A model generated the notes under the pieces. The model was not told where the DNA came from. It worked only from the letters and a program-made list of their open reading frames with translations, and ran no database searches. 64,000 nt of DNA from a virus: positions 1 through 64,000 of IMG/VR virus record IMGVR_UViG_3300029911_000002. One strand, written 5' to 3'. The position numbers and the translations under genes are program-made. Positions within the stretch are counted from its first letter, which is position 1. Every line of letters starts with the position of its first letter. Of this stretch, positions 4,949 through 55,125 are shown one piece after another.

Positions 4949-5019
4949 GCTCATTTAGTCCAGTGATAGGGCGGTAGCCTCTAAAACTACCTACATCGGT
5001 TTGAATCCGATAGTGAGCA
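4949..5019 (+). tRNA. Candidate amber suppressor tRNA, anticodon CUA
   Basis: Cloverleaf: acceptor GCTCATT (4949-4955) with AGTGAGC (5012-5018), 7 bp including one G-U; T8 and A9; D stem GTCC/GGGC around AGTGATA; anticodon stem GTAG/CTAC with a C-A mismatch next to the loop; loop CTCTAAA (4979-4985) with U33 and anticodon CTA (4981-4983); variable CTAC; T stem ATCGG/CCGAT around TTTGAAT; discriminator A. No CCA is encoded, fitting the CCA-adding enzyme at 38229. Weak points are the mismatch at 31-39 and a D loop without GG. The loop CTCTAAA is identical to that of classical amber suppressors such as E. coli supF. The charging amino acid cannot be told from sequence. Confidence 0.7.
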
Positions 5020-5053
5020 CAAATATATTTTTCATAAGGTATATTTATTTTTA

Positions 5054-11859: not shown

Positions 11860-12153
11860 ATGAAAGAGCACAATCACAATAATGATATTAATTATAATGC
11901 TGTTATTGAACAATGTGGTTTAATATTATATAAAAAGAAAGCAATAGGTAATAAAGCAAGATTATTGTATATAATTCAAGCAAAATCTGGTAGATATGAT
12001 CATCAAAGTATTATTATAATAAAAGAAATTAATAAAGATTTCATAAAAATAAATGATTCTAATGATATAGAATCAAAATTATATGAACCAGATAGATTAC
12101 TTTATAACCAAATAAAAGAATATATAATAGAAGCAAATTATGAATATAGATAG
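11860..12153 (+). CDS. Hypothetical protein, 97 aa
   Basis: Not recognised. N-terminal His/Asn-rich stretch (MKEHNHNNDIN), then a small beta-rich body (QSIIIIKEIN). Stops with TAG at 12151-12153, backed up by TAA eight codons on. Overlaps the RNA ligase start by 14 bases. Confidence 0.65.
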   Translation: MKEHNHNNDINYNAVIEQCGLILYKKKAIGNKARLLYIIQAKSGRYDHQSIIIIKEINKDFIKINDSNDIESKLYEPDRLLYNQIKEYIIEANYEYR

Positions 12154-13162
12154 AAAATTAGCAACAATTCAGGTAATTAAAGACATATTACCAATTAAAG
12201 GAGCAGATAGAATAGAGGTTGCACGCATAAAAGGTTGGAAAGTAGTAGTTAAAAAAGACGAATTTAAAGTAGGTGACAAAGTTGTTTATTTTGAAATTGA
12301 TTCACTATTACCTATTAGAGAAGAATTTGAATTTCTTAGAAATAGTTCATATAGAAAAACTGATGAACAAGAAGGTTTCCTCTTGAGAACGGTCAAATTA
12401 CGCAAACAATTTTCATGTGGACTAATAATGTCATTAGATATTTTAAATGATACACCTTGTCATATATTTAAATTGACAGAAGGTGATGATGTATCTGATT
12501 ATCTAAATGTTGTAAAATTTGAAGTTCCAATACCTGATGAACTTAAAGCTGATGTTGTTGGTCCTATTCCTTCATTCATATTGAAGACAAATGAAGAACG
12601 CGCACAAAATTTATCTGATGATTTCGATGAATGGAAAAAAGATAATGTAATATTCTATGAAACAGAGAAACTTGATGGTCAATCTACCACTATGTATTTA
12701 CATAATGGAGTATTTGGCGTGTGTGGTAGAAACTGGGAATTTAAAAGAAATCCAAATAATTTATTTTGGAAATTTGCAATTGAAAATAATATTGAAGAGA
12801 AATTAAGAATATATGGTAAAAATATTGCTGTTCAAGGTGAATTAATTGGTTCAGGAATAGAAGGCAATAACTATAAATTAAGCCATAAAACAATAAAATA
12901 TTTTAGAGTTTTTAATATAGATGAATATAAATTGGAAGATTATAATACATTCGTTGATATTGTAACTAATGTATTAAATGCTGACACGGTTCCTTTAATT
13001 TGTAGTTATTATAAATTACCTGGCACTATTGATGAAATATTAAAACATGTTGAAGGCAAATCTGTATTAACAAATTCATCAAAAAGGGAGGGAAGTGTAT
13101 TTAAATCAATTGATTCATCAATAAGTTTTAAGGTCATTAACAATGAATATTTAATTAATTGA
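12140..13162 (+). CDS. RNA ligase, Rnl5/DraRnl-like (TIGR02306 family)
   Basis: 340 residues. An N-terminal OB-like domain (~1-100, VKKDEFKVGDKVVYFEID) precedes the adenylyltransferase domain. Motif I is EKLDGQS (~175-181; the Lys accepts AMP), motif IV-like VQGELIGSGIEG (~233-244), then REGSVFKS (~311-318) and motif V SFKVIN (~324-329). The layout with an N-terminal OB module is that of Deinococcus Rnl, which seals 3'-OH/5'-phosphate nicks in RNA. With the kinase-phosphatase at 36663 it gives a full end-healing and sealing route for cleaved tRNA. Confidence 0.88.
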   Translation: MNIDRKLATIQVIKDILPIKGADRIEVARIKGWKVVVKKDEFKVGDKVVYFEIDSLLPIREEFEFLRNSSYRKTDEQEGFLLRTVKLRKQFSCGLIMSLDILNDTPCHIFKLTEGDDVSDYLNVVKFEVPIPDELKADVVGPIPSFILKTNEERAQNLSDDFDEWKKDNVIFYETEKLDGQSTTMYLHNGVFGVCGRNWEFKRNPNNLFWKFAIENNIEEKLRIYGKNIAVQGELIGSGIEGNNYKLSHKTIKYFRVFNIDEYKLEDYNTFVDIVTNVLNADTVPLICSYYKLPGTIDEILKHVEGKSVLTNSSKREGSVFKSIDSSISFKVINNEYLIN

Positions 13163-36662: not shown

Positions 36663-37601
36663 ATGAAAAAAGATAAAAAATTAGTCATATCTTGTGGATT
36701 ACCAGCAGCAGGTAAATCAAGCATCATTGAAAAATATGTTGATTATAAATGTACATTACTATCAAGAGATATTGAAGGAGATACATTAAGTTCTCTTAAT
36801 AAAAAACTTGAACAATTAATGTTAGATGGCGTGGATATTGTATTAGATGGAACATATTCAACTAAATTATCTAGGGCTGATGTTATTGAATTAGCAAAAA
36901 AATATAATTATTATATATTATGTATTCATTTTACTACAAAAATTGAAGATTGTATGTTCAATCAGGTAACAAGAATGATAAGAAAATATGGTAAATTATT
37001 CACAGAATTAAGTGAATATTCTAACTCTAATGATCCACATATGTTTCCTGTTGCTGCACTTTATAAAATTAATAAAAATTTTGAAGCACCTGAATTATCA
37101 GAAGGTATTGATGATATAGAAAAAATAGATTTTAAACGTTATTCATCAGAATATAAAAATAAAGCAATTTTATTTGATTATGATGGTACATTGAGATTAA
37201 CTAAAAGTGGTGAACATTATCCAACTGATATTAGTGATATTGAAATAATTCCAGGTAGAACAGAAAAACTTTTAGAATTACAAAGTCAAGGTTATATATT
37301 ACTTGGAGTTTCAAATCAAAGTGGAATAGCAAAAGGATTATTATCTAATGATACAGCAATAGCTTGTTTTGAAAAAACAAATGAAATGCTAGGAGTTAAT
37401 ATTGATTATAAATATTGTGGGCATTCAGTTCCTCCAATAACTTGCTATTGTAGAAAACCAGGAGTTGGACTAGGAATAGAATTTATTGAAAAATATAAAC
37501 TTGATCCATCTCAATGCATAATGGTTGGAGATTTAACAAGTGATAAAACATTTGCTAAAAGATGTGGATTCAAATATATTGATGCTGCTAATTTCTTCTA
37601 A
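36663..37601 (+). CDS. Polynucleotide 5'-kinase / 3'-phosphatase (T4 PseT-like)
   Basis: 312 residues. N-terminal kinase: P-loop SCGLPAAGKSS (~10-20), LSRD (~33-36), VLDGTYST (~60-67), and an R-x-x-R lid region. C-terminal HAD phosphatase: LFDYDGTLR (~171-179, D-x-D-G-T), GVSNQSGIAKG (~217-227), and CRKPGVGLG plus GDLTSDKTFAK (~281-291). It heals RNA ends, adding 5'-phosphate and removing 3'- or 2',3'-cyclic phosphate, so that an RNA ligase can seal them. Domain order matches T4 Pnkp; the partner ligase is at 12140. Confidence 0.92.
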   Translation: MKKDKKLVISCGLPAAGKSSIIEKYVDYKCTLLSRDIEGDTLSSLNKKLEQLMLDGVDIVLDGTYSTKLSRADVIELAKKYNYYILCIHFTTKIEDCMFNQVTRMIRKYGKLFTELSEYSNSNDPHMFPVAALYKINKNFEAPELSEGIDDIEKIDFKRYSSEYKNKAILFDYDGTLRLTKSGEHYPTDISDIEIIPGRTEKLLELQSQGYILLGVSNQSGIAKGLLSNDTAIACFEKTNEMLGVNIDYKYCGHSVPPITCYCRKPGVGLGIEFIEKYKLDPSQCIMVGDLTSDKTFAKRCGFKYIDAANFF

Positions 37602-38228: not shown

Positions 38229-38951
38229 ATGCCAAAAATTTATGAAGTGGGCGGATGTGTACGTGACCGTATCTTAGGAGTTGATTGTAAAGATATAGAC
38301 TTTACTTTTGTATTGGATGACAAGAATCAATCAGTTGAATCTGGATTCATGTCAATGGACTTGTGGTTACGTAAAAATGGCTACACCGTATATAATTCAA
38401 CTCCAAGATGTTTCACAATCAAAGCAAAGTTTCCAAAAGGACATAAGCATGAAGGGTTAACTGCAGATTTTGTAATGGCTAGAAAGGAAATTGGTTATTA
38501 CGAAGGAACAAGACGTCCAATTTTAGAACTTGGTACACTTGAAGATGATTTAATCAGACGTGATTTCACATTGAATGCTATGGCACTTGATGAAGATGAA
38601 AATTTGATTGATTTATTTGATGGAGTAAAAGATCTTAAAATGGGTATTCTTAGAACGCCAAGACCTTGCCAACTTACATTTGATGAGGATCCATTACGGA
38701 TTTTACGTTGTGAGCGTTTTTGTATTACAAAAGGTTTCAGAATGACTGATGATATTGAAGTTGCTATTAAAAATTATGATTATGAATCAAAAATGCAAGT
38801 AGTTTCAAATGAAAGAATTCAAGATGAACTTACCAAGTGTTTTAAATTTGATACATTAAAAACAATTTTGATGTTGAATGAATTTCCTGAATTGAGAGAT
38901 TATGTATTTAATCATACTAAGATGTGGTTGAAACCATCATTTCAAAAATAA
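38229..38951 (+). CDS. CCA-adding tRNA nucleotidyltransferase, head and neck domains
   Basis: 240 residues. VGGCVRDRILGVDCKDIDFT (~7-26) holds G-G-x-V-R-D and D-x-D; RRDFTLNAMALDED (~116-129) and DLFDGVKDL follow, then DEDPLRILRCERF (~156-168) and the E-R-I-x-x-E/D-L motif (NERIQDEL, ~197-204). These are the class II nucleotidyltransferase signatures. It adds CCA to tRNA 3' ends and repairs trimmed ones. At 240 residues it lacks the tail/HD part; an HD protein with matching sequence lies at 58968. None of the tRNA-like genes here encodes CCA, which fits. Confidence 0.9.
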   Translation: MPKIYEVGGCVRDRILGVDCKDIDFTFVLDDKNQSVESGFMSMDLWLRKNGYTVYNSTPRCFTIKAKFPKGHKHEGLTADFVMARKEIGYYEGTRRPILELGTLEDDLIRRDFTLNAMALDEDENLIDLFDGVKDLKMGILRTPRPCQLTFDEDPLRILRCERFCITKGFRMTDDIEVAIKNYDYESKMQVVSNERIQDELTKCFKFDTLKTILMLNEFPELRDYVFNHTKMWLKPSFQK

Positions 38952-43834: not shown

Positions 43835-45484
43835 TTATTTATTATTATTATTTAACTTTTCAATTGCTTCATTCATAATATCATCTGTTATACCTAATTC
43901 ATGAGTGGTTTTAACAATATGTTTTTTATTAAATACATCATATAAATCATGCTTATTATCATCTATAATTATAAAATTACTAACTATTTTATTATTTTTC
44001 AACCAATCTTTTATATCGGCACCTCTTTTTTTAGATTTGTCATTTGGAACACAGTCATATATTTTATATTTAAAACCTGCTTTTTTCATCATATCTTCTA
44101 TTTTACTTTTAGGTTTATCATCTCTATATGATGAAGATAAAACAACTTTAGCATCTGTTTTTTCAATTATTGTGTTTAAATTACTCATGGCAGTTTTACT
44201 CCATTTATCAGGCTCATTAAAAAATTTATGATAATTTACATCAGAATTTTTATTATAAGGAATAAGTGGTCCATCAATATCTTCAAATATTACTTTTATT
44301 CCTCCATCTTTTTCTTTTTCTTTATCTTTTTCAATAGTTTTTATTATACCATTAAATGATTCTAATCTGGAATAATTTTCATCATCTGCATCTATTATTA
44401 TCCAAGGAGCATTTTTAGTATTTGTTTTTTTGAAAATTTCATTTATATATTTAGTAAATTCGTCCCATTTATCTAAAGTTTGTTCATCATTCTTACTAAA
44501 TTTCCAATATTTTAATGGGTTAGATTTTCTTAATTCAAACCTCATTTTTTGTACATCCTGAGATATAGAAAACCATATTTTTATAAGTATTATATCATCA
44601 TCAATTAATTTATCTTCAAAATTATTGACTTCTTTCATGAATTTATTATATTTATCTTCATTTGAATATCCCATTACAGGTTCTACATAACCTCTTGTAT
44701 ACCAAGATCTATCAAAGAACACAATTTCACCGTTTTTAGGTAACACTTTTTCATATCTTTCAAACCAATTATCACTTTCTTCTTCTGAAGGAATACCAAA
44801 AGTTTGAACTTTAAAATGCTTAGGATCAAGAAATCTTGTTATATTTCTAATTGCAGATCCTTTTCCTGCTGCATCTCTACCTTCAAATATAATTAACACT
44901 TTTTTATTATTATATACAATCCACTCTTGTAATTTCAATAATTCTATTTGATATTTATATTTTGTTTTTTGATAATCATCAAAAGGTACTTTATTTATTT
45001 TAATATCTATTTTATTATATGGTTCATATGACTTATCAGTTTCAATTTTATTGTAGAAAAATTCATAAGTGTTATCTATATATCTATCAACATTATCAAG
45101 ATATGCTTTGAAAACACTATCTGCATTCTTTATATTAATATCAAATGAATTTGTTATAGAATATATTTTTAGAATATCATTAGCAAATTTACCTAATCTC
45201 ATCTGTTTAATTATATCATCATCTACATTATTTAAAAAATCTTTAAATAAATCTTTAAATTTACCCATAGTATTTTTATTATAATTATTTAATAAATATG
45301 TTTTATATGATTCTAAATCTTCTTTAATTTGAGTTTTATAGAAATCTAATGTGTATTTTTTATCAATAGATTGCTTCAAATTTATAATTAAGCTTTTAAA
45401 AGAATGAATAAGGTTTTCCAATTCATCTTTACTACGATGAAAAAAAGCTTCATTTAGTTTATTATAATCATTATAGTTTAACAT
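43835..45484 (-). CDS. PPK2 polyphosphate kinase fused to an RNA-repair-type HAD domain
   Basis: 549 residues in three parts. (1) ~1-160: leader MLNYNDYNKLNEAFF (L-N-E/A, a possible prohead-protease site) and a helical region. (2) ~170-380: PPK2 domain with Walker A FEGRDAAGKGSAIR, FGIPSEEESDNWFERY, Walker B FFDRSWYTRGYVEPVMG and a lid with MRFELRKSNPLKYWKFS. PPK2 makes NTP from NDP (or NDP from NMP) with polyphosphate. (3) ~390-549: HAD domain with VIFEDIDGPLIP and VVLSSSYRDD, as in the HAD domain of 'Swiss army knife' RNA repair proteins; the nucleophile position reads E-D-I-D-G. I know of no described protein with this fusion. Confidence 0.88.
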   Translation of the reverse strand: MLNYNDYNKLNEAFFHRSKDELENLIHSFKSLIINLKQSIDKKYTLDFYKTQIKEDLESYKTYLLNNYNKNTMGKFKDLFKDFLNNVDDDIIKQMRLGKFANDILKIYSITNSFDINIKNADSVFKAYLDNVDRYIDNTYEFFYNKIETDKSYEPYNKIDIKINKVPFDDYQKTKYKYQIELLKLQEWIVYNNKKVLIIFEGRDAAGKGSAIRNITRFLDPKHFKVQTFGIPSEEESDNWFERYEKVLPKNGEIVFFDRSWYTRGYVEPVMGYSNEDKYNKFMKEVNNFEDKLIDDDIILIKIWFSISQDVQKMRFELRKSNPLKYWKFSKNDEQTLDKWDEFTKYINEIFKKTNTKNAPWIIIDADDENYSRLESFNGIIKTIEKDKEKEKDGGIKVIFEDIDGPLIPYNKNSDVNYHKFFNEPDKWSKTAMSNLNTIIEKTDAKVVLSSSYRDDKPKSKIEDMMKKAGFKYKIYDCVPNDKSKKRGADIKDWLKNNKIVSNFIIIDDNKHDLYDVFNKKHIVKTTHELGITDDIMNEAIEKLNNNNK

Positions 45485-46822: not shown

Positions 46823-47122
46823 ATGAAATATATAAAAACTTTTGAATTCGTTAGCAGAGAAGTAGATTTACCAATAGGATATTATGTTATTCCTGCTCTT
46901 AAAGGAATAAATTATGATATTCAATATAAAAATAAAATCAGTAATAATATTTTTCAAATAATAAATAAAAGTAAGACACAATTTAAAATTGATTTTAAAG
47001 ATTATTATCATGAAGATGGGTTTTGGATTGACAAAAAAGATGTTTATAAATTCTCAGGAAGTAAAAAAGTACTACAAGATAAATTGGAATTAATGAAACA
47101 AACGAATAAATTTAACTTATGA
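46823..47122 (+). CDS. Leader/KFN-tail protein
   Basis: 99 residues: MKYIKTFEF leader, beta-rich middle (DLPIGYYVIPALKGINYDIQ), tail MKQTNKFNL. One of only two array-type genes on the plus strand. Stop and next start overlap (TTATGATAA). Confidence 0.76.
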   Translation: MKYIKTFEFVSREVDLPIGYYVIPALKGINYDIQYKNKISNNIFQIINKSKTQFKIDFKDYYHEDGFWIDKKDVYKFSGSKKVLQDKLELMKQTNKFNL

Positions 47123-48799: not shown

Positions 48800-49129
48800 A
48801 TGATTAAAGTTTATATTGCATCTCCTTATACAAAAGGAGATCCTGCAGTTAATGTCAAAACTCAAATTGATATGGCAGATGAATTAATAAATAAAGGATT
48901 TGCGCCATTCGTTCCATTATATTTCCATTTTCAACATATGCATCATCCCAGACCATATGAAGATTGGTTGAAATTAGATTTAGAATGGATAAAAAGTTGT
49001 GATTGTATATTAAGATTACCAGGAGAATCAAGCGGAGCAGATAAAGAAGTTGATTTTGCAACTAATAATGATACATTAGTATTTTTCTCAATGAAAGATT
49101 TATGTTTTTATTACGATATAGAATATTAA
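48800..49129 (+). CDS. Nucleoside 2-deoxyribosyltransferase-like (DUF1937/DUF4406) protein
   Basis: 109 residues. VYIASPYTKGDP (~4-15), MADELINKGFAPFVPLYFHF (~28-47), a D-L-E-W-I-K-S-C-D block (~65-73) and RLPGESSGADKEVDFA (~76-91) match the Rossmann-like family of nucleoside deoxyribosyltransferase relatives (Y-I-A-x-P; D ... LPG-S-x-G-x-x-x-E). Relatives cleave or swap N-glycosidic bonds of nucleosides or NAD-like compounds. Last gene before the non-coding region. Confidence 0.82.
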   Translation: MIKVYIASPYTKGDPAVNVKTQIDMADELINKGFAPFVPLYFHFQHMHHPRPYEDWLKLDLEWIKSCDCILRLPGESSGADKEVDFATNNDTLVFFSMKDLCFYYDIEY

Positions 49130-49181
49130 TTTATTGATATATAAATATTTAAAAAATATTTTAAAATTTAACACTAAAATA

Positions 49182-49212
49182 TTTGGTGATATGAAAACTT
49201 TTAGTAATTTTG
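49182..49212 (+). promoter_or_regulatory. Promoter cassette copy 1
   Basis: TTTG (49182-49185), 19 nt, TAATTTTG (49205-49212). Copies 2-10 follow at about 60-700-base intervals. The spacer of this one is divergent (GTGATATGAAAACTTTTAG). Confidence 0.7.
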
Positions 49213-49339
49213 CATCACAAACAAAAACAAATGTAATTATTTACAATCAAATCAACTAAGAAAAATAATAAATATCTTAGTTGATTTGATAATTTAATAA
49301 GAGGACTTGAAAAAAATTTCAAAACTTTAACATTAAATA

Positions 49340-49371
49340 TTTGGTGAAATGAAAACATTTTTATAATTTTA
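49340..49371 (+). promoter_or_regulatory. Promoter cassette copy 2
   Basis: TTTG (49340-49343), 20 nt, TAATTTTA (49364-49371; last base off consensus). Preceded by the shared block AAAACTTTAACATTAAATAT. Confidence 0.6.
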
Positions 49372-49446
49372 TTCTACAATAAAAAAACAAAAATTTTTAA
49401 GTAATAGTATTGAAAAAAAAAAACTTCAAAACTTTATCATTAAATA

Positions 49447-49478
49447 TTTGGTAAAACAAAAAACTTTTTGTAATTTTA
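49447..49478 (+). promoter_or_regulatory. Promoter cassette copy 3
   Basis: TTTG (49447-49450), 20 nt, TAATTTTA (49471-49478). Spacer is the standard one, with the palindrome ACAAAAAACTTTTTGT. Confidence 0.65.
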
Positions 49479-49496
49479 TTCTACAACAAAAAATAT

Positions 49497-49512
49497 CAAG
49501 TAAGAGTACTTG
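49497..49512. repeat. Recurrent hairpin CAAGTA-n4-TACTTG
   Basis: CAAGTA AGAG TACTTG. The same 6-bp stem recurs at 50818-50833, 51128-51143 and 51871-51886 with changing loops (GGAG, AGAG, AAAG). The first three precede the next promoter cassette by about 30 bases; the last has none after it. An A-run follows, not a T-run, so it is more likely an RNA-processing site than a plus-strand terminator. Confidence 0.6.
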
Positions 49513-49544
49513 AGAAAAAAAGTTCAAAACTTTAACATTAAATA

Positions 49545-49576
49545 TTTGGTAAAACAAAAAACTTTTTGTAATTTTG
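49545..49576 (+). promoter_or_regulatory. Promoter cassette copy 4
   Basis: TTTG (49545-49548), 20 nt, TAATTTTG (49569-49576); full consensus. Confidence 0.75.
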
Positions 49577-49653
49577 AACTACAACATCAAAAGAAAAGTA
49601 ATTATAAAAATTATATTTTAATTGAAAAAAAGTAGAAAAAACTTTCAAAAATA

Positions 49654-49685
49654 TTTGGTAAAACAAAAAACTTTTTGTAACTTTG
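49654..49685 (+). promoter_or_regulatory. Promoter cassette copy 5
   Basis: TTTG (49654-49657), 20 nt, TAACTTTG (49678-49685); full consensus. Confidence 0.75.
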
Positions 49686-49763
49686 AACTACAATTCAAAA
49701 AGAAATATAGTTTTAAAAAATTAAATTTCAATTGAAAAAAGTTCAAACTTTAACATTAAAATA

Positions 49764-49795
49764 TTTGGTAAAACAAAAAACTTTTTGTAACTTTG
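49764..49795 (+). promoter_or_regulatory. Promoter cassette copy 6
   Basis: TTTG (49764-49767), 20 nt, TAACTTTG (49788-49795); full consensus. Leads directly into RNA element copy 1. Confidence 0.75.
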
Positions 49796-49834
49796 AACTA
49801 CAATAAAAAACAAATCAAACTTCAGATTGAAAAA

Positions 49835-49904
49835 AATCTAATGGTACAAAAACCAACTCAAAGCTTGCGAGAGTATAGATAGTGCAAATGAACACACTTA
49901 GATT
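49835..49904 (+). ncRNA. 68-nt RNA element, copy 1
   Basis: AATCTAA (49835-49841) pairs with TTAGATT (49898-49904) as a 7-bp closing stem. Inside, CTC(A)AAGCTTGCGAG replaces the CCTT/AAGG hairpin of other copies, so the inner stem is kept with different bases; then GTG/CAC. About 40 nt downstream of promoter copy 6. Confidence 0.65.
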
Positions 49905-50119
49905 AATGTAATAATAATTTAGTAGTAAGGAAACAAACTTTAATCTTGAAAAAGTTTATAGTGAAACTTGAAAATAAATTTAATATTACAAAAGTAAATA
50001 TAGTAAGTTCAAACTTACTGTTTCTAATCTGTGAAGATAAAAAGGACTGAAAATGATTTGATTTTTATTTACTCTTGTAAACGTACTTGAGAAAAAATAG
50101 AAAATACTTTCAAAAATAT

Positions 50120-50151
50120 TTGGTAAAACAAAAAACTTTTTGTAAATTTAT
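50120..50151 (+). promoter_or_regulatory. Promoter cassette copy 7
   Basis: TTTG (50120-50123), 20 nt, TAAATTTA (50144-50151). Drives the ~600-nt segment holding the tRNA-like element at 50516. Confidence 0.65.
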
Positions 50152-50515
50152 TCTATAATAATTTAAATCAAAAAATCAGATTTAAACAAGAAATATCAGC
50201 GAGATTTGCGCTCTGAGTGTATATATTTATAAGAAAATATATATCAACCAGATGAATGAGAAGCTCATAGTGGTGAGTCAATGATAAGATTATAATCTTA
50301 AATAATCAATATTATCAAAGATAGACAGTCCATTGAAACAGATATATAAGACATGTAGAACTTATCTTGTTATAAATATACAAAGCAACCACACCGTGGA
50401 GATTGAATATTGGAATTAAATTTCGAATATGATAAAATCCTAATGTTAGATGAGACGTGACTAACTACTTTCATTCCACTACAAGGACTGATTATTGATT
50501 AAATTATAAAATGTT
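50152..50515 (+). ncRNA. Structured non-coding segment upstream of tRNA-like element
   Basis: No ORF. Contains ATATATTT/AAAATATAT and other short hairpins, AGATTATAATCT-like palindrome at ~50289 and a stretch richer in G/C (CAACCACACCGTGGAGATTG, ~50388-50407). Probably a stable RNA or precursor transcribed from promoter copy 7. Confidence 0.45.
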
Positions 50516-50607
50516 GGAGATAAGCACACAGGGTGCATCATTATTAGAATAATCTAATTTGAAGGGGCAAGTGTCAATGACACAAGGTTCAATTCCTTCT
50601 ATCTTCA
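50516..50607 (+). tRNA. Class-II-like tRNA with enlarged anticodon region
   Basis: Acceptor GGAGATA (50516-50522) with TATCTTC (50600-50606), one G-U; D-like stem GCAC/GTGC; long variable arm GTGTC/GACAC; T arm AAGG/CCTT around TTCAATT; discriminator A; no CCA. Between D and variable arms are 34 nt rather than about 18, holding ATTAGA/TCTAAT around ATAA. A normal 7-nt anticodon loop cannot be drawn. Total 92 nt, the size of tRNA-Ser/Leu. Confidence 0.5.
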
Positions 50608-50817
50608 CTATGAATATTGATTTCAACACTGAAAATCAGAACTTGTTCTGAAAGTAAGTTCCACTATTGATATTCATAACCAACAACAAGCGAGTTTTGG
50701 TTAAATAATAAATATTAAAAAATGTATATTAATTAATTGAAATCTCTTGAAAAAGAGCTGTTAATTTAAATAATATGATTTAATAACATTATTTAATCAA
50801 AATTCCTTGGATAAAAA

Positions 50818-50833
50818 CAAGTAGGAGTACTTG
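50818..50833. repeat. Recurrent hairpin CAAGTA-n4-TACTTG
   Basis: CAAGTA GGAG TACTTG, 30 bases before promoter cassette copy 8; same stem as at 49497. Confidence 0.6.
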
Positions 50834-50863
50834 AAAAATAGTTCAAACTTTAACATTAAAATA

Positions 50864-50895
50864 TTTGGTAAAACAAAAAACTTTTTGTAAATTTG
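50864..50895 (+). promoter_or_regulatory. Promoter cassette copy 8
   Basis: TTTG (50864-50867), 20 nt, TAAATTTG (50888-50895); full consensus. Confidence 0.75.
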
Positions 50896-50938
50896 AACTA
50901 CAATAAAAAAGAAAATCATAATTCAGATTTAATAGATA

Positions 50939-51007
50939 ATCTAATGGGATAAAAACCACCTTGAAGCTTGCAAAAGGAAAGATAGTGCAATTAAACACTC
51001 TTAGATT
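50939..51007 (+). ncRNA. 68-nt RNA element, copy 2
   Basis: Closing stem AATCTAA (50939-50945) / TTAGATT (51001-51007); inner CCTT-GAAGCTTGCAA-AAGG hairpin and AGTG/CACT. 40 nt after promoter copy 8. Confidence 0.68.
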
Positions 51008-51127
51008 GATAATGATAATAATCGTAAGATTATTAAATTACAAGAATAAATATGATAAATGAAAATTTATTTTTTCTAAGCTGAGAAGCTAAAAGAACTG
51101 ATAAAAGATTTTTTTTAATACTCATTT

Positions 51128-51143
51128 CAAGTAAGAGTACTTG
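51128..51143. repeat. Recurrent hairpin CAAGTA-n4-TACTTG
   Basis: CAAGTA AGAG TACTTG, between RNA element copy 2 and promoter copy 9. Confidence 0.6.
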
Positions 51144-51171
51144 AAAAAAATGTAGAAAAAATTCAAAAATA

Positions 51172-51203
51172 TTTGGTAAAACAAAAAACTTTTTGTAATT
51201 TTG
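51172..51203 (+). promoter_or_regulatory. Promoter cassette copy 9
   Basis: TTTG (51172-51175), 20 nt, TAATTTTG (51196-51203); full consensus. Only ~110 bases separate it from copy 10, with no recognised RNA element between. Confidence 0.75.
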
Positions 51204-51318
51204 TACTTAATAAATAATAATCATCTAATTGAAACTAGTTTATTGCTTCCATGTGATACTTCAATTTATGATTAGTAAGATTATTATTAATTTAAAAAAG
51301 TATAAAAATTCAAAAATA

Positions 51319-51350
51319 TTTGGTAAAACAAAAAACTTTTTGTAAATTTG
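51319..51350 (+). promoter_or_regulatory. Promoter cassette copy 10
   Basis: TTTG (51319-51322), 20 nt, TAAATTTG (51343-51350); full consensus. Precedes four tandem RNA elements (copies 3-6). Confidence 0.75.
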
Positions 51351-51395
51351 GACTACAATAATGAAACAAATCAAATTTCAGATTGAAGCAATAAA

Positions 51396-51469
51396 AATAT
51401 AATGGTACAAAAACCACCTTGAAGCTTGCAAAAGGAGATAGTGCAAATGAACACAACTTATATATTAAG
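51396..51469 (+). ncRNA. 68-nt RNA element, copy 3
   Basis: Same inner sequence as copy 2 (CCTTGAAGCTTGCAAAAGG). The closing stem is AATATAA with TTATAT(ATT): relative to the other copies C became A on one side and G became T on the other, a compensatory change that supports the stem. Confidence 0.65.
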
Positions 51470-51489
51470 TATCTTGCTGAAACAATTAA

Positions 51490-51558
51490 AATCTAATGGG
51501 ATAGAAACCACCTTGAAGCTTGCAAAAGGAGATAGTGCAATTAAACACACTTAGATAT
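51490..51558 (+). ncRNA. 68-nt RNA element, copy 4
   Basis: AATCTAA (51490-51496) / TTAGAT(A)TT at 51551; inner hairpin as in copy 2. Copies 4 and 5 differ by only a few bases. Confidence 0.66.
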
Positions 51559-51582
51559 TAAATATTGTATAAGTAACTAAAA

Positions 51583-51652
51583 AATCTAATGGGATAGAAA
51601 CCACCTTGAAGCTTGCAAAAGGAGATAGTGCAATTAAACACACTTAGATATT
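51583..51652 (+). ncRNA. 68-nt RNA element, copy 5
   Basis: AATCTAA (51583-51589) / TTAGAT(A)TT at 51644; inner CCTT/AAGG hairpin intact. Confidence 0.66.
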
Positions 51653-51677
51653 AATGAAATTGAAAAAGTAATAAAAA

Positions 51678-51725
51678 TAATCAAAGGCAATAGCCACCTT
51701 GAAGCTTGCAAAAGGAGAGATTAAT
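51678..51725 (+). ncRNA. RNA element copy 6, partial
   Basis: Only the inner part (GCCACCTTGAAGCTTGCAAAAGGAG) remains; the closing stem and the GTGCAA...CAC segment are missing. Degenerate copy at the end of the tandem. Confidence 0.5.
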
Positions 51726-51870
51726 ATTACAAAAGTAAATATTGCAAAAGTAATAAAAATTCAAGGATTTATATTACAAGAGTAGATATAATGAACATAA
51801 CCAAATGTTTATTGTTCCAATGATAAAGTTCTGTGAAGAACAAAGGACTGAAATAGATTTGTGACATTTT

Positions 51871-51886
51871 CAAGTAAAAGTACTTG
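51871..51886. repeat. Recurrent hairpin CAAGTA-n4-TACTTG
   Basis: CAAGTA AAAG TACTTG at the end of the tandem RNA-element unit, preceded by the recurring motif AAAGGACTGAAA (also at ~50041). Confidence 0.6.
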
Positions 51887-52059
51887 AACTTTTAAAACAA
51901 CATGAATTAATATAAAATTATGTAGGTTGAAATTCCAGGAAAGTGGATCAATAATGAGCAGAAAGTTAATGTCTTTCTATCGCTTTTGTTAAGTCTTATT
52001 TAAAATTCTTCTATATTAATTCTGTTGTTTTTTTAAAGCGTTCTTTGTAAAATTGAAAA

Positions 52060-52945
52060 TATTTGGCTGTCTGTAGTCATAAATAAACTACGAAAGTAGT
52101 ATAAAGTGAGTTATAGTTGTTTCTATAACTTGCGGTATTAAATGTGCAGTTGATTTTATTTTTTCGGAAATAAAATTAATTGTAAACAATAATACTTGAG
52201 CAGACAATCAGGATATCATTAAACCTTGATTATCGAGGGTAACACTGTAGAGAAAGTGGTTTAATGCAAAGGCTATGTGGGTAGTCTGAGTGAGATGGGA
52301 ACATCAATAAGAATAACCTGAAGGATTATTGCAAGAAATACGATTTCCAGTTGTGTAATTGCGTTATCCAATATAAAAGTTGACTTAAAACCGAAAGGTA
52401 AATTAGATTGTAATACAATGTACAGGTGGTGCTGTAATTAAGGTTACCTTAACATTACCAAGTGTTACGAGAGTATCTTAGTTGACTTAAAATATGGAGG
52501 TAGGGATATCTCAGAGAGTAGTTTAGTATAGCTCAGTTCAAAAGATTGAGAAGCTGGTTGTCGAACCACTACTTTCATCATCCACAAAACAAACTTTAAC
52601 TGCAAATTTAATGCAAATTAAAATAAACAAATAAAGGAAAAGAGTTCGACTGTTGTTAGTGATAGGTGACTACTAGTTATGAGAAGCAATTCGTCGTAGC
52701 CGTGAAAGACCCCAAGTCCAACATGATTTTTAAGAAAGTTCTCTAAATCCGCAAGATTTAATCTGGAAGGCATTCTAGATGAGTAATGATTATTAAGAGA
52801 GTAATTAACAACAAAAGGAGTGGTGAATCTAATTGACCGTCATTGGAGGAGTACCAATTCAAAAGATTGGTGGAAAAGAAGCAGAAAAAATAATAGTTTC
52901 TAAAGTTCTTCTCTATAATGCTGTATTCTCAAGCAATATAAAATA
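52060..52945 (+). ncRNA. Large structured RNA, about 890 nt
   Basis: No ORF and a richer base composition than the surroundings. Strong local folds: ACTAC-GAAA-GTAGT (52087-52100, GNRA loop), AGTTATAG/CTATAACT (52109-52130), ATTTTATTT/AAATAAAAT (52153-52176), long-range CATTAAACC (52217-52225) / GGTTTAATG (52258-52266), GAGAGTAGT/ACTACTTTC (52514-52576), and two hairpins with the same TTCAAAAGA loop but different stems: CTCAG/TTGAG (52532-52550) and ACCAA/TTGGT (52853-52871). Ends at a perfect terminator. Size and phage/tRNA-like context recall GOLLD or ROOL RNAs, but I cannot confirm either. Confidence 0.7.
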
Positions 52946-52984
52946 AAAATCCTATCTAATTGAAAAATTAGATAGGATTTTTTA
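52946..52984. terminator. Strong bidirectional terminator
   Basis: AAAATCCTATCTAATT (52946-52961) pairs perfectly over 16 bp with AATTAGATAGGATTTT (52966-52981) around GAAA, then T-run. Ends the non-coding region and faces the minus-strand array. Confidence 0.92.
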
Positions 52985-53030
52985 TTTATAAGCTATTTCA
53001 CTTATAAATACACTTTATAAGTTATTTCAC

Positions 53031-53342
53031 TTATAAATTGAATTTGTTTGCATCTTGTTTTAATTTATAATCTTTCATAAATTCTTCAACTTCGTCGTCA
53101 ATAACTATATATTCTCTGTTTTTTAAACATAATCTATCATCCACGTACTTTCCTTTTTGATCTAGATACACTCCAACATCACCATTACAGGAACCAAATG
53201 GATGAGTAAGAGTACCAGTTAAATACTCATCATCCTCTTTAAATTTGATTTTAGTGCCTACTGGATATTTAGATCTACCTGCTAATATAACATCATCATC
53301 TAACATTGTAAATTGATGCTCATTAAATTTTAGTATTTTCAT
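53031..53342 (-). CDS. Leader/KFN-tail protein
   Basis: 103 residues from ATG 53342 (MKILKFNEHQF); the longer ORF start overlaps the upstream gene. SH3-like middle (GTKIKFKEDDEYLTGTLTHP), tail KQDANKFNL. Last gene of the five-gene array 53031-55125. Confidence 0.75.
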   Translation of the reverse strand: MKILKFNEHQFTMLDDDVILAGRSKYPVGTKIKFKEDDEYLTGTLTHPFGSCNGDVGVYLDQKGKYVDDRLCLKNREYIVIDDEVEEFMKDYKLKQDANKFNL

Positions 53343-53346
53343 ATTA

Positions 53347-53796
53347 CTATATATTAAATTTTTTAGCATTAAATATATCAGGATGATTTATCTCTAACCA
53401 TTTGTTATATTCATCTAAATTGTTATAAGGTAGGTTATTACCTTCACATACTAATATTTCTAATGTCTCTGGTAATAATGGTAACTCAGATAAATTATTA
53501 TTACTACAATTTAATGTCTTTAATGAATATGGTAATGTCGGCAATTCTTTTAAATTATTAGAATAGCAAAATATTTTTTTTATTGAGTGCGGTAAAGTAG
53601 GTAACTCACGCAAAACATTATTAAAACAAGATAATATCTCTAATGTCTCTGGTAATGTTGGCAATTCTTTTAAATTATTATTATAGCAATATAATTCTGT
53701 TGTTGTATCTGGAATATTTGATATTATAAATAATCCTTTATCATTTAATGTCAATACATTATCCATTATATGTTCAAATGTTTTTATATATTTCAT
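53347..53796 (-). CDS. Leucine-rich-repeat leader/KFN-tail protein
   Basis: 149 residues: MKYIKTFEH leader, five 20-residue LPxLP repeats (each ~L-x-E-L-P-T-L-P-x-S-L-K-x-L-x-C-x-N-N), then LPYNNLDEYNKWLEIN and tail NAKKFNI. Closest relative in the window is 41455; the two share the LPYN-L cap and ends but differ in repeats. Confidence 0.85.
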   Translation of the reverse strand: MKYIKTFEHIMDNVLTLNDKGLFIISNIPDTTTELYCYNNNLKELPTLPETLEILSCFNNVLRELPTLPHSIKKIFCYSNNLKELPTLPYSLKTLNCSNNNLSELPLLPETLEILVCEGNNLPYNNLDEYNKWLEINHPDIFNAKKFNI

Positions 53797-54365: not shown

Positions 54366-54685
54366 AAGTTAAATTTATTTGCTTGTAATTCTAATTCTAA
54401 TTCTTCTTTAGTTCTAGCATATTTTTCAACATCACTTGAATTTAACTCTATATGATAAACATAATATTTTCCTTTTTTATCAAAACATTCAATTAGTTCA
54501 TCTGGTACATATTCATATCCAAACTTAATCCAAATAGGATTGGTTCCTCTTATATCAATAATTTTACAAATATTATTTTTAAAAAAAACTGATATCCCTT
54601 GGTTTCTAGGTTCAAAGTTAATTATAGCATAATCTCCTTTTTTTATATCTCTATTTAATCTTTCAAATGTTTTTAAATATTTCAT
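54362..54685 (-). CDS. Leader/KFN-tail protein
   Basis: 107 residues: MKYLKTFER leader, SH3-like middle (DIKKGDYAIINFEPRNQGIS), YARTKEELE segment, tail LQANKFNL; the same architecture as 33960 and 34307, 20 kb away. Confidence 0.76.
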   Translation of the reverse strand: MKYLKTFERLNRDIKKGDYAIINFEPRNQGISVFFKNNICKIIDIRGTNPIWIKFGYEYVPDELIECFDKKGKYYVYHIELNSSDVEKYARTKEELELELQANKFNL

Positions 54686-55125
54686 ATGTTAAATTTATCA
54701 GTATTTTTATTAAGTTTAAGTTCTTTAACTATTTCTGGATATTTTTTATCAAGCCATTTTTTCAATTTATCATCTGTAATTAAATCATAAAATGTTTCAC
54801 CTTTATATTTTATATTATAATCAATTCCGTTATCTAATAATAATTGAATCATTTTCTTTTTTTCATATATATCTCCTTCACCTGTTATAACAAAAAATAA
54901 AACTGTTTGATATTTTAATATGTCATTTAATTTATCAATATAATCAGGTAATAAATATATAAATCTTTTAAGATTACCATCATAAGCGGATTGCATCAGG
55001 GCATTATAACCCATTCGTATACCCATTCGTATTAAATCATTTTCTACTGCTGAATTCCACATATCTAAATCATGAGATTTAAATACGTTAGTAAACCTAT
55101 TTTCAAATGTTTTTAAATATTTCAT
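54682..55125 (-). CDS. Ankyrin-like leader/KFN-tail protein
   Basis: 147 residues: MKYLKTFEN leader, degenerate ankyrin-like helices (GYNALMQSAYDGNLKRFIYL), ends NKNTDKFNI. First gene of the array. Confidence 0.77.
   Translation of the reverse strand: MKYLKTFENRFTNVFKSHDLDMWNSAVENDLIRMGIRMGYNALMQSAYDGNLKRFIYLLPDYIDKLNDILKYQTVLFFVITGEGDIYEKKKMIQLLLDNGIDYNIKYKGETFYDLITDDKLKKWLDKKYPEIVKELKLNKNTDKFNI

Follow-up and report, generated by a model that had tools for sequence, protein, structure and literature searches.

The GOLLD locus

The window, a 64,000-nt stretch of DNA, belongs to a virus record of 214,510 bp. Between 52060 and 52945 it carries no plausible open reading frame (ORF), the longest being 51 aa on the minus strand; a terminator follows at 52945-52982. 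A sequence-only reading had described this segment as about 890 nt without an ORF, forming a large structured RNA. The absence of an ORF and the structure both hold, whereas the family, then called unknown, is a described one. A cmscan search matches GOLLD (RF02032) to 52514-52935 on the plus strand across the complete model (positions 1-416), with 278.9 bits (E ~1e-78) against a gathering score of 150 bits. GOLLD is the sole non-tRNA Rfam match in the window and is present once in the whole record; searched at E up to 1, 49100-53050 gives no other Rfam match. ROOL, OLE and introns were rejected for want of a match at that threshold. The earlier comparison with GOLLD and ROOL, as large structured RNAs, was right, and the RNA is GOLLD itself.

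RF02032 models the conserved 3' domain of GOLLD alone, and Rfam has no model for 52058-52513. This plus-strand stretch is a separate, more variable 5' domain with double changes in its helices, and it brings the RNA to the roughly 800-900 nt typical of GOLLD. The structured RNA extends from about 52058 to 52940, with a boxA leader from at least 52040 and the terminator reaching 52982. The terminator stem has 17 pairs, one more than the 16 first counted, and a T-run on both strands; it may also end the convergent gene at 53031-53369 on the minus strand.

The setting is that of a phage: the record encodes a phage-type RNA ligase and gives other PHROG matches. The phage is large, at least 214 kb, and its host is probably a member of the Bacteroidota. 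The closest canonical tRNA match lies about 29 kb from the RNA; proximity of tRNA genes to GOLLD is frequent rather than obligatory, and ICP1 has none (PMC7567579). The segment 52058-52940 is a new, divergent member of the already described GOLLD family, distinguished by two longer hairpins in its 5' domain.

Homologues

At least 119 stretches came out of a search of viral contigs with a string conserved in GOLLD. Queried with the window sequence alone, nhmmer lists the 3' part in 119 loci; 104 of these also have the 5' part (52058-52513), and in most of the other 15 the locus boundary cuts it off. All 19 related records tested score above the cut-off of the family model, the lowest scores coming from the window's lineage. 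At GOLLD, six records barely differ from the window, L108/L119 and L125/L129 stand for two more phage species close to it, and the other relatives show about 56-62% identity. In the phages collection all matches were weak, to two huge uncultured phages and one Acinetobacter phage, and a scan of bacterial genomes with the GOLLD pattern gave four putative matches in unrelated taxa, which were left out of the analysis. Directly downstream of its full copy, the L125/L129 record has another GOLLD 3' end, which is partial (model 306-415, 30.8 bits), at 280598-280699 on the minus strand of G010.

Fold and covariation

The predicted fold of the window RNA has an energy of -215.7 kcal/mol against a shuffle mean of -184.5 (z -4.0) and is more stable than all 20 dinucleotide shuffles. 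In a consensus structure built from 42 non-redundant homologues, most helices of both domains carry double changes. Covariation was judged against a null in which the substitutions of the tree were replayed at random sites (a custom script modelled on R-scape, using Fitch reconstruction); 22 pairs covary significantly (E 0.05 or less), and 20 of them fall inside the consensus structure, itself taken from the same alignment, 8 in the 5' domain and 12 in the 3' domain. Homologues with covariation, whose absence was to have counted against an RNA, thus favour one. The window copy forms 201 of the 234 consensus pairs and breaks 33.

Structural elements of the window sequence recur in this consensus. 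They include both TTCAAAAGA loops, several stems of 6-10 bp, the long-range helices 52514-52522/52568-52576 and 52651-52660/52804-52813, and the GNRA hairpin at 52088-52099 (CTAC-GAAA-GTAG), the stem of which covaries among relatives. Most of the extra length of the window's GOLLD is due to two plus-strand hairpins longer than their counterparts in relatives, one of 11 bp at 52106-52133 and one of 18 bp at 52145-52184. An A-rich variable linker lies at 52577-52640; it is unpaired in the Rfam alignment and sits inside the cage in the published GOLLD structure (PMC12286853).

Twin loops and bridge loops

The TTCAAAAGA loop occurs on two different hairpins, at 52537-52545 and 52858-52866, as the sequence-only reading had noticed; its suggestion that the repeat might mark a new class fails, since both hairpins carry such a loop across GOLLD relatives. 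In the Rfam consensus and the relatives listed, the first loop reads UCAAAAG(A/G). Almost all of these relatives have (U/C)CAAAAG as the second loop, with one UUAAAAG; the complete TTCAAAAGA string occurs twice in 8 of 42 non-redundant relatives. The twin loops are therefore a conserved trait of the GOLLD family. From the order of the hairpins, the second loop is probably L26, whose adenosines dock on P14 in the published structure (PMC12286853).

Loops of two symmetric intermolecular bridges are also kept in the window as in relatives: an L21a-like loop, CCGCAAG, which includes the GC of bridge B8, and an L21b-like loop, GGCA, of bridge B9, both assigned by position rather than by alignment to the solved structure. 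For the kissing pair L20-J13/15 (bridge B7), no clear complementarity was found in the window copy.

The GOLLD leader

A boxA-like motif, GTTCTTTG, lies at 52040-52047 on the plus strand, just ahead of the 5' domain. The form GTTCTTT(G/A) is found within 300 nt upstream of GOLLD in 41 of 42 non-redundant loci, with 0.35 expected from mononucleotide shuffles, and TAnnTTTG stands upstream in equally many (5.6 expected). In the 40 loci with both, the two are separated by 32-36 nt in 31 and by exactly 36 nt in 20. In the leaders of relatives a TTG precedes TAnnTTTG by 20 nt, and many of them have, between promoter box and boxA, a short hairpin that shows compensatory changes; the pattern search landed at a wrong site in a few rows, such as L057 and L033. 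We take TAnnTTTG to be the Bacteroidota -7 box and GTTCTTTGA to be the boxA form of such bacteria. The literature that uses the TAnnTTTG term is mostly on Bacteroides and Flavobacterium.

Most GOLLD relatives thus share with bacterial rRNA operon leaders the order promoter, short hairpin (where rRNA leaders have boxB) and boxA-like GTTCTTTGAAA. The window's GOLLD differs in keeping only boxA nearby, its closest TAnnTTTG being 186 nt upstream of boxA, and binding of NusB/S10 is putative. In bacteria boxA binds NusB-S10 and blocks Rho termination (PMC10931766). The motif precedes GOLLD in a 634-kb phage and was not seen before GOLLD in Acinetobacter phage Herod or a 642-kb phage; boxA is a trait of the window's GOLLD clade, not of all GOLLD. 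Within a limited search, no literature linking GOLLD with boxA was found, and the leader of promoter box and boxA ahead of GOLLD in 41 of 42 relatives appears to be new. Such an rRNA-like leader is a direct clue to how phages produce so much GOLLD. In the leader of L085, promoter and boxA have between them about 170 nt of additional sequence, which looks structured and includes GAGGAAAGUGACUACGGGAC.

The upstream island

From the end of a gene at 49129 up to GOLLD lies a 2.9-kb island of plus-strand elements, in which no plausible ORF was found with translation table 11 or with TAG read as Q. The corresponding gap is 2.7 kb in L119 and mostly 250-870 nt at other GOLLD loci. The island is conserved in three phage species, always ahead of GOLLD; in the window's lineage it replaces the compact GOLLD promoter, an arrangement that also looks new.

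About ten promoter-like repeats of the form TTTG-N20-TAnnTTT(G/A) lie on the plus strand between 49182 and 51350 (starts at 49182, 49340, 49447, 49545, 49654, 49764, 50119, 50864, 51172 and 51319). Seven match TTG-N19-21-TAnnTTTG, with 0.04 expected from mononucleotide shuffles, the copies being duplicates of each other. They are read as promoters because the same motif stands 11-61 nt upstream of ORFs at about seven other places in the window. An RNA hairpin was considered and dropped, since the bases that vary are the free ones of TAnnTTTG and the repeats have the spacing of the GOLLD promoters. Boxes (TTG/TTTG and TAnnTTTG) and 20-nt spacing, in the island as before phage genes, are those of Bacteroidota promoters; the island differs in holding some ten of them in tandem in a gene-free stretch.

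Six copies of a four-way-junction RNA of about 70 nt, each with a closing stem and three hairpins, lie on the plus strand between 49834 and 51751 (starts at 49834, 50937, 51395, 51489, 51582 and 51678). Its pairs co-vary through compensatory changes over 20 copies from three species, one position being C-G, A-U or G-C. A profile search confines the element to the islands, apart from single matches in five other contigs to its 18-base repeat core, which are probably due to chance. Its 11-nt loop contains the palindrome AAGCUU, which could make symmetric kissing loops.

A tRNA-like element at 50516-50606 (plus strand) lies inside a structured stretch of about 550 nt. The element shows compensatory changes in three species. 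It has an acceptor-like stem, a D-like arm, a variable arm and a T-arm with TTCAATT; where an anticodon loop is expected there is a hairpin with a four-base loop. Neither ARAGORN nor Rfam calls a tRNA here, and the element was not counted as one. Its proposed fold, compared among three sequences, has weaker support than that of GOLLD. The island is a source of candidate partner RNAs for GOLLD.

Alternative readings

That the RNA belongs to a new class merely resembling GOLLD, with the doubled TTCAAAAGA loop as its hallmark, might be argued from the 5' stretch lying outside every Rfam model, from the two longer hairpins and from an identity of about 60% to distant relatives. The full-length GOLLD match is far over the cut-off, the 5' domain is common to typical GOLLD phages and both loops are conserved GOLLD loops; a new class was therefore rejected as extremely improbable. 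A degenerate, non-functional GOLLD relic would fit the set's lowest GOLLD scores, which come from the window's lineage, and the broken consensus pairs of the window copy, and is very unlikely: a comparison of two phage species gives about 96-98% identity in the 3' domain against about 80% in the upstream region, so the 3' domain is under stronger constraint, and terminator and boxA are intact.

A wider reading takes 49.1-53.0 kb as one long RNA or RNA island with GOLLD as its 3' part, in which tandem promoters would drive several tRNA-like RNAs that cooperate with the cage, for example as cargo. It draws on the single strand, the absence of ORFs even with TAG as sense, the promoter-like repeats, covarying junction repeats and tRNA-like element, their retention before GOLLD in each of three species, and the frequent closeness of other GOLLD loci to tRNA genes. 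Other GOLLD phages lack the island, however, and adjacency is no proof of joint function; we regard this reading as unlikely. The specific version, a 3.9-kb non-coding island that closes with GOLLD and whose tandem phage promoters would express the tRNA-like four-way-junction RNAs and the larger tRNA-like RNA together with the cage, as its cargo or partners, seems slightly less probable still. The preferred reading, a GOLLD RNA with its two-domain layout and probable assembly into a cage, is very likely when these parts are taken jointly.

Predicted expression and cage assembly

Identity, domain layout, covariation, terminator and conserved leader motifs are direct observations; expression and cage assembly in this phage are expected by analogy with homologues. 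GOLLD env-38 forms a closed, hollow 14-mer RNA cage in vitro, and the level of GOLLD goes up during lysis (PMC12286853); in phage ICP1 a large non-coding RNA of comparable length outnumbers every other transcript (PMC7567579). In the window's phage, transcription of the plus strand would run from upstream promoters through the boxA leader and stop at the terminator, and boxA suggests that host antitermination machinery of the rRNA type may let RNA polymerase complete the long untranslated RNA at a high rate. The product would fold into a 5' and a 3' domain with the A-rich linker, and by homology with the solved GOLLD its copies may assemble into a closed cage capped by the 5' domains, with the 3' domains as its ring.

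The window's RNA shares with GOLLD (RF02032; env-38, PMC12286853) the complete 3' domain, a homologous 5' domain, a length of about 880 nt, the unpaired linker, the conserved loops and the phage setting. It differs in its two longer 5'-domain hairpins, in having no adjoining canonical tRNA and in its 2.9-kb island of promoters and small RNAs in place of a compact leader. The longer hairpins and the identity of about 60% to most members could alter or prevent the cage geometry. ROOL, which also forms cages (PMC12286853), has the same size and phage setting; the window's RNA, searched at E up to 1, gives no hit to the ROOL model of Rfam. GOLLD is among the largest known RNA-only cages. As cargo, the authors of its structure considered tRNAs, ribosomes, metabolites or stress proteins (PMC12286853). 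A cage abundant late in infection might sequester translation-related RNAs or particles, which is a guess and rather doubtful.

Other features of the phage and its relatives

Phage-encoded tmRNA genes lie a few kb from GOLLD in L031, L071 and L076, and in L031 a tRNA follows directly 3' of the GOLLD end. In the window, ARAGORN reports a tRNA with a CUA anticodon at 4949-5020 on the plus strand (as tRNA-Pyl); it is possibly a suppressor tRNA, because TAG ends only 2 of the 56 window ORFs of 120 aa or more. Genes of an RNA-repair and tRNA set (RNA ligase, polynucleotide kinase/phosphatase, tRNA nucleotidyltransferase and a PPK2-HAD fusion of the 'Swiss Army Knife RNA repair' type) lie at 12140-13162, 36663-37601 and 38229-38951 on the plus strand and 43835-45484 on the minus strand. 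Seventeen window ORFs, among them 46823-47122 (plus), 53347-53796 and 54682-55125 (both minus), encode small proteins that begin with MKY(I/L)KxFE and end in (N)KFN(L/I) and are otherwise unlike one another; the shared termini may be a tag for sorting or packaging.
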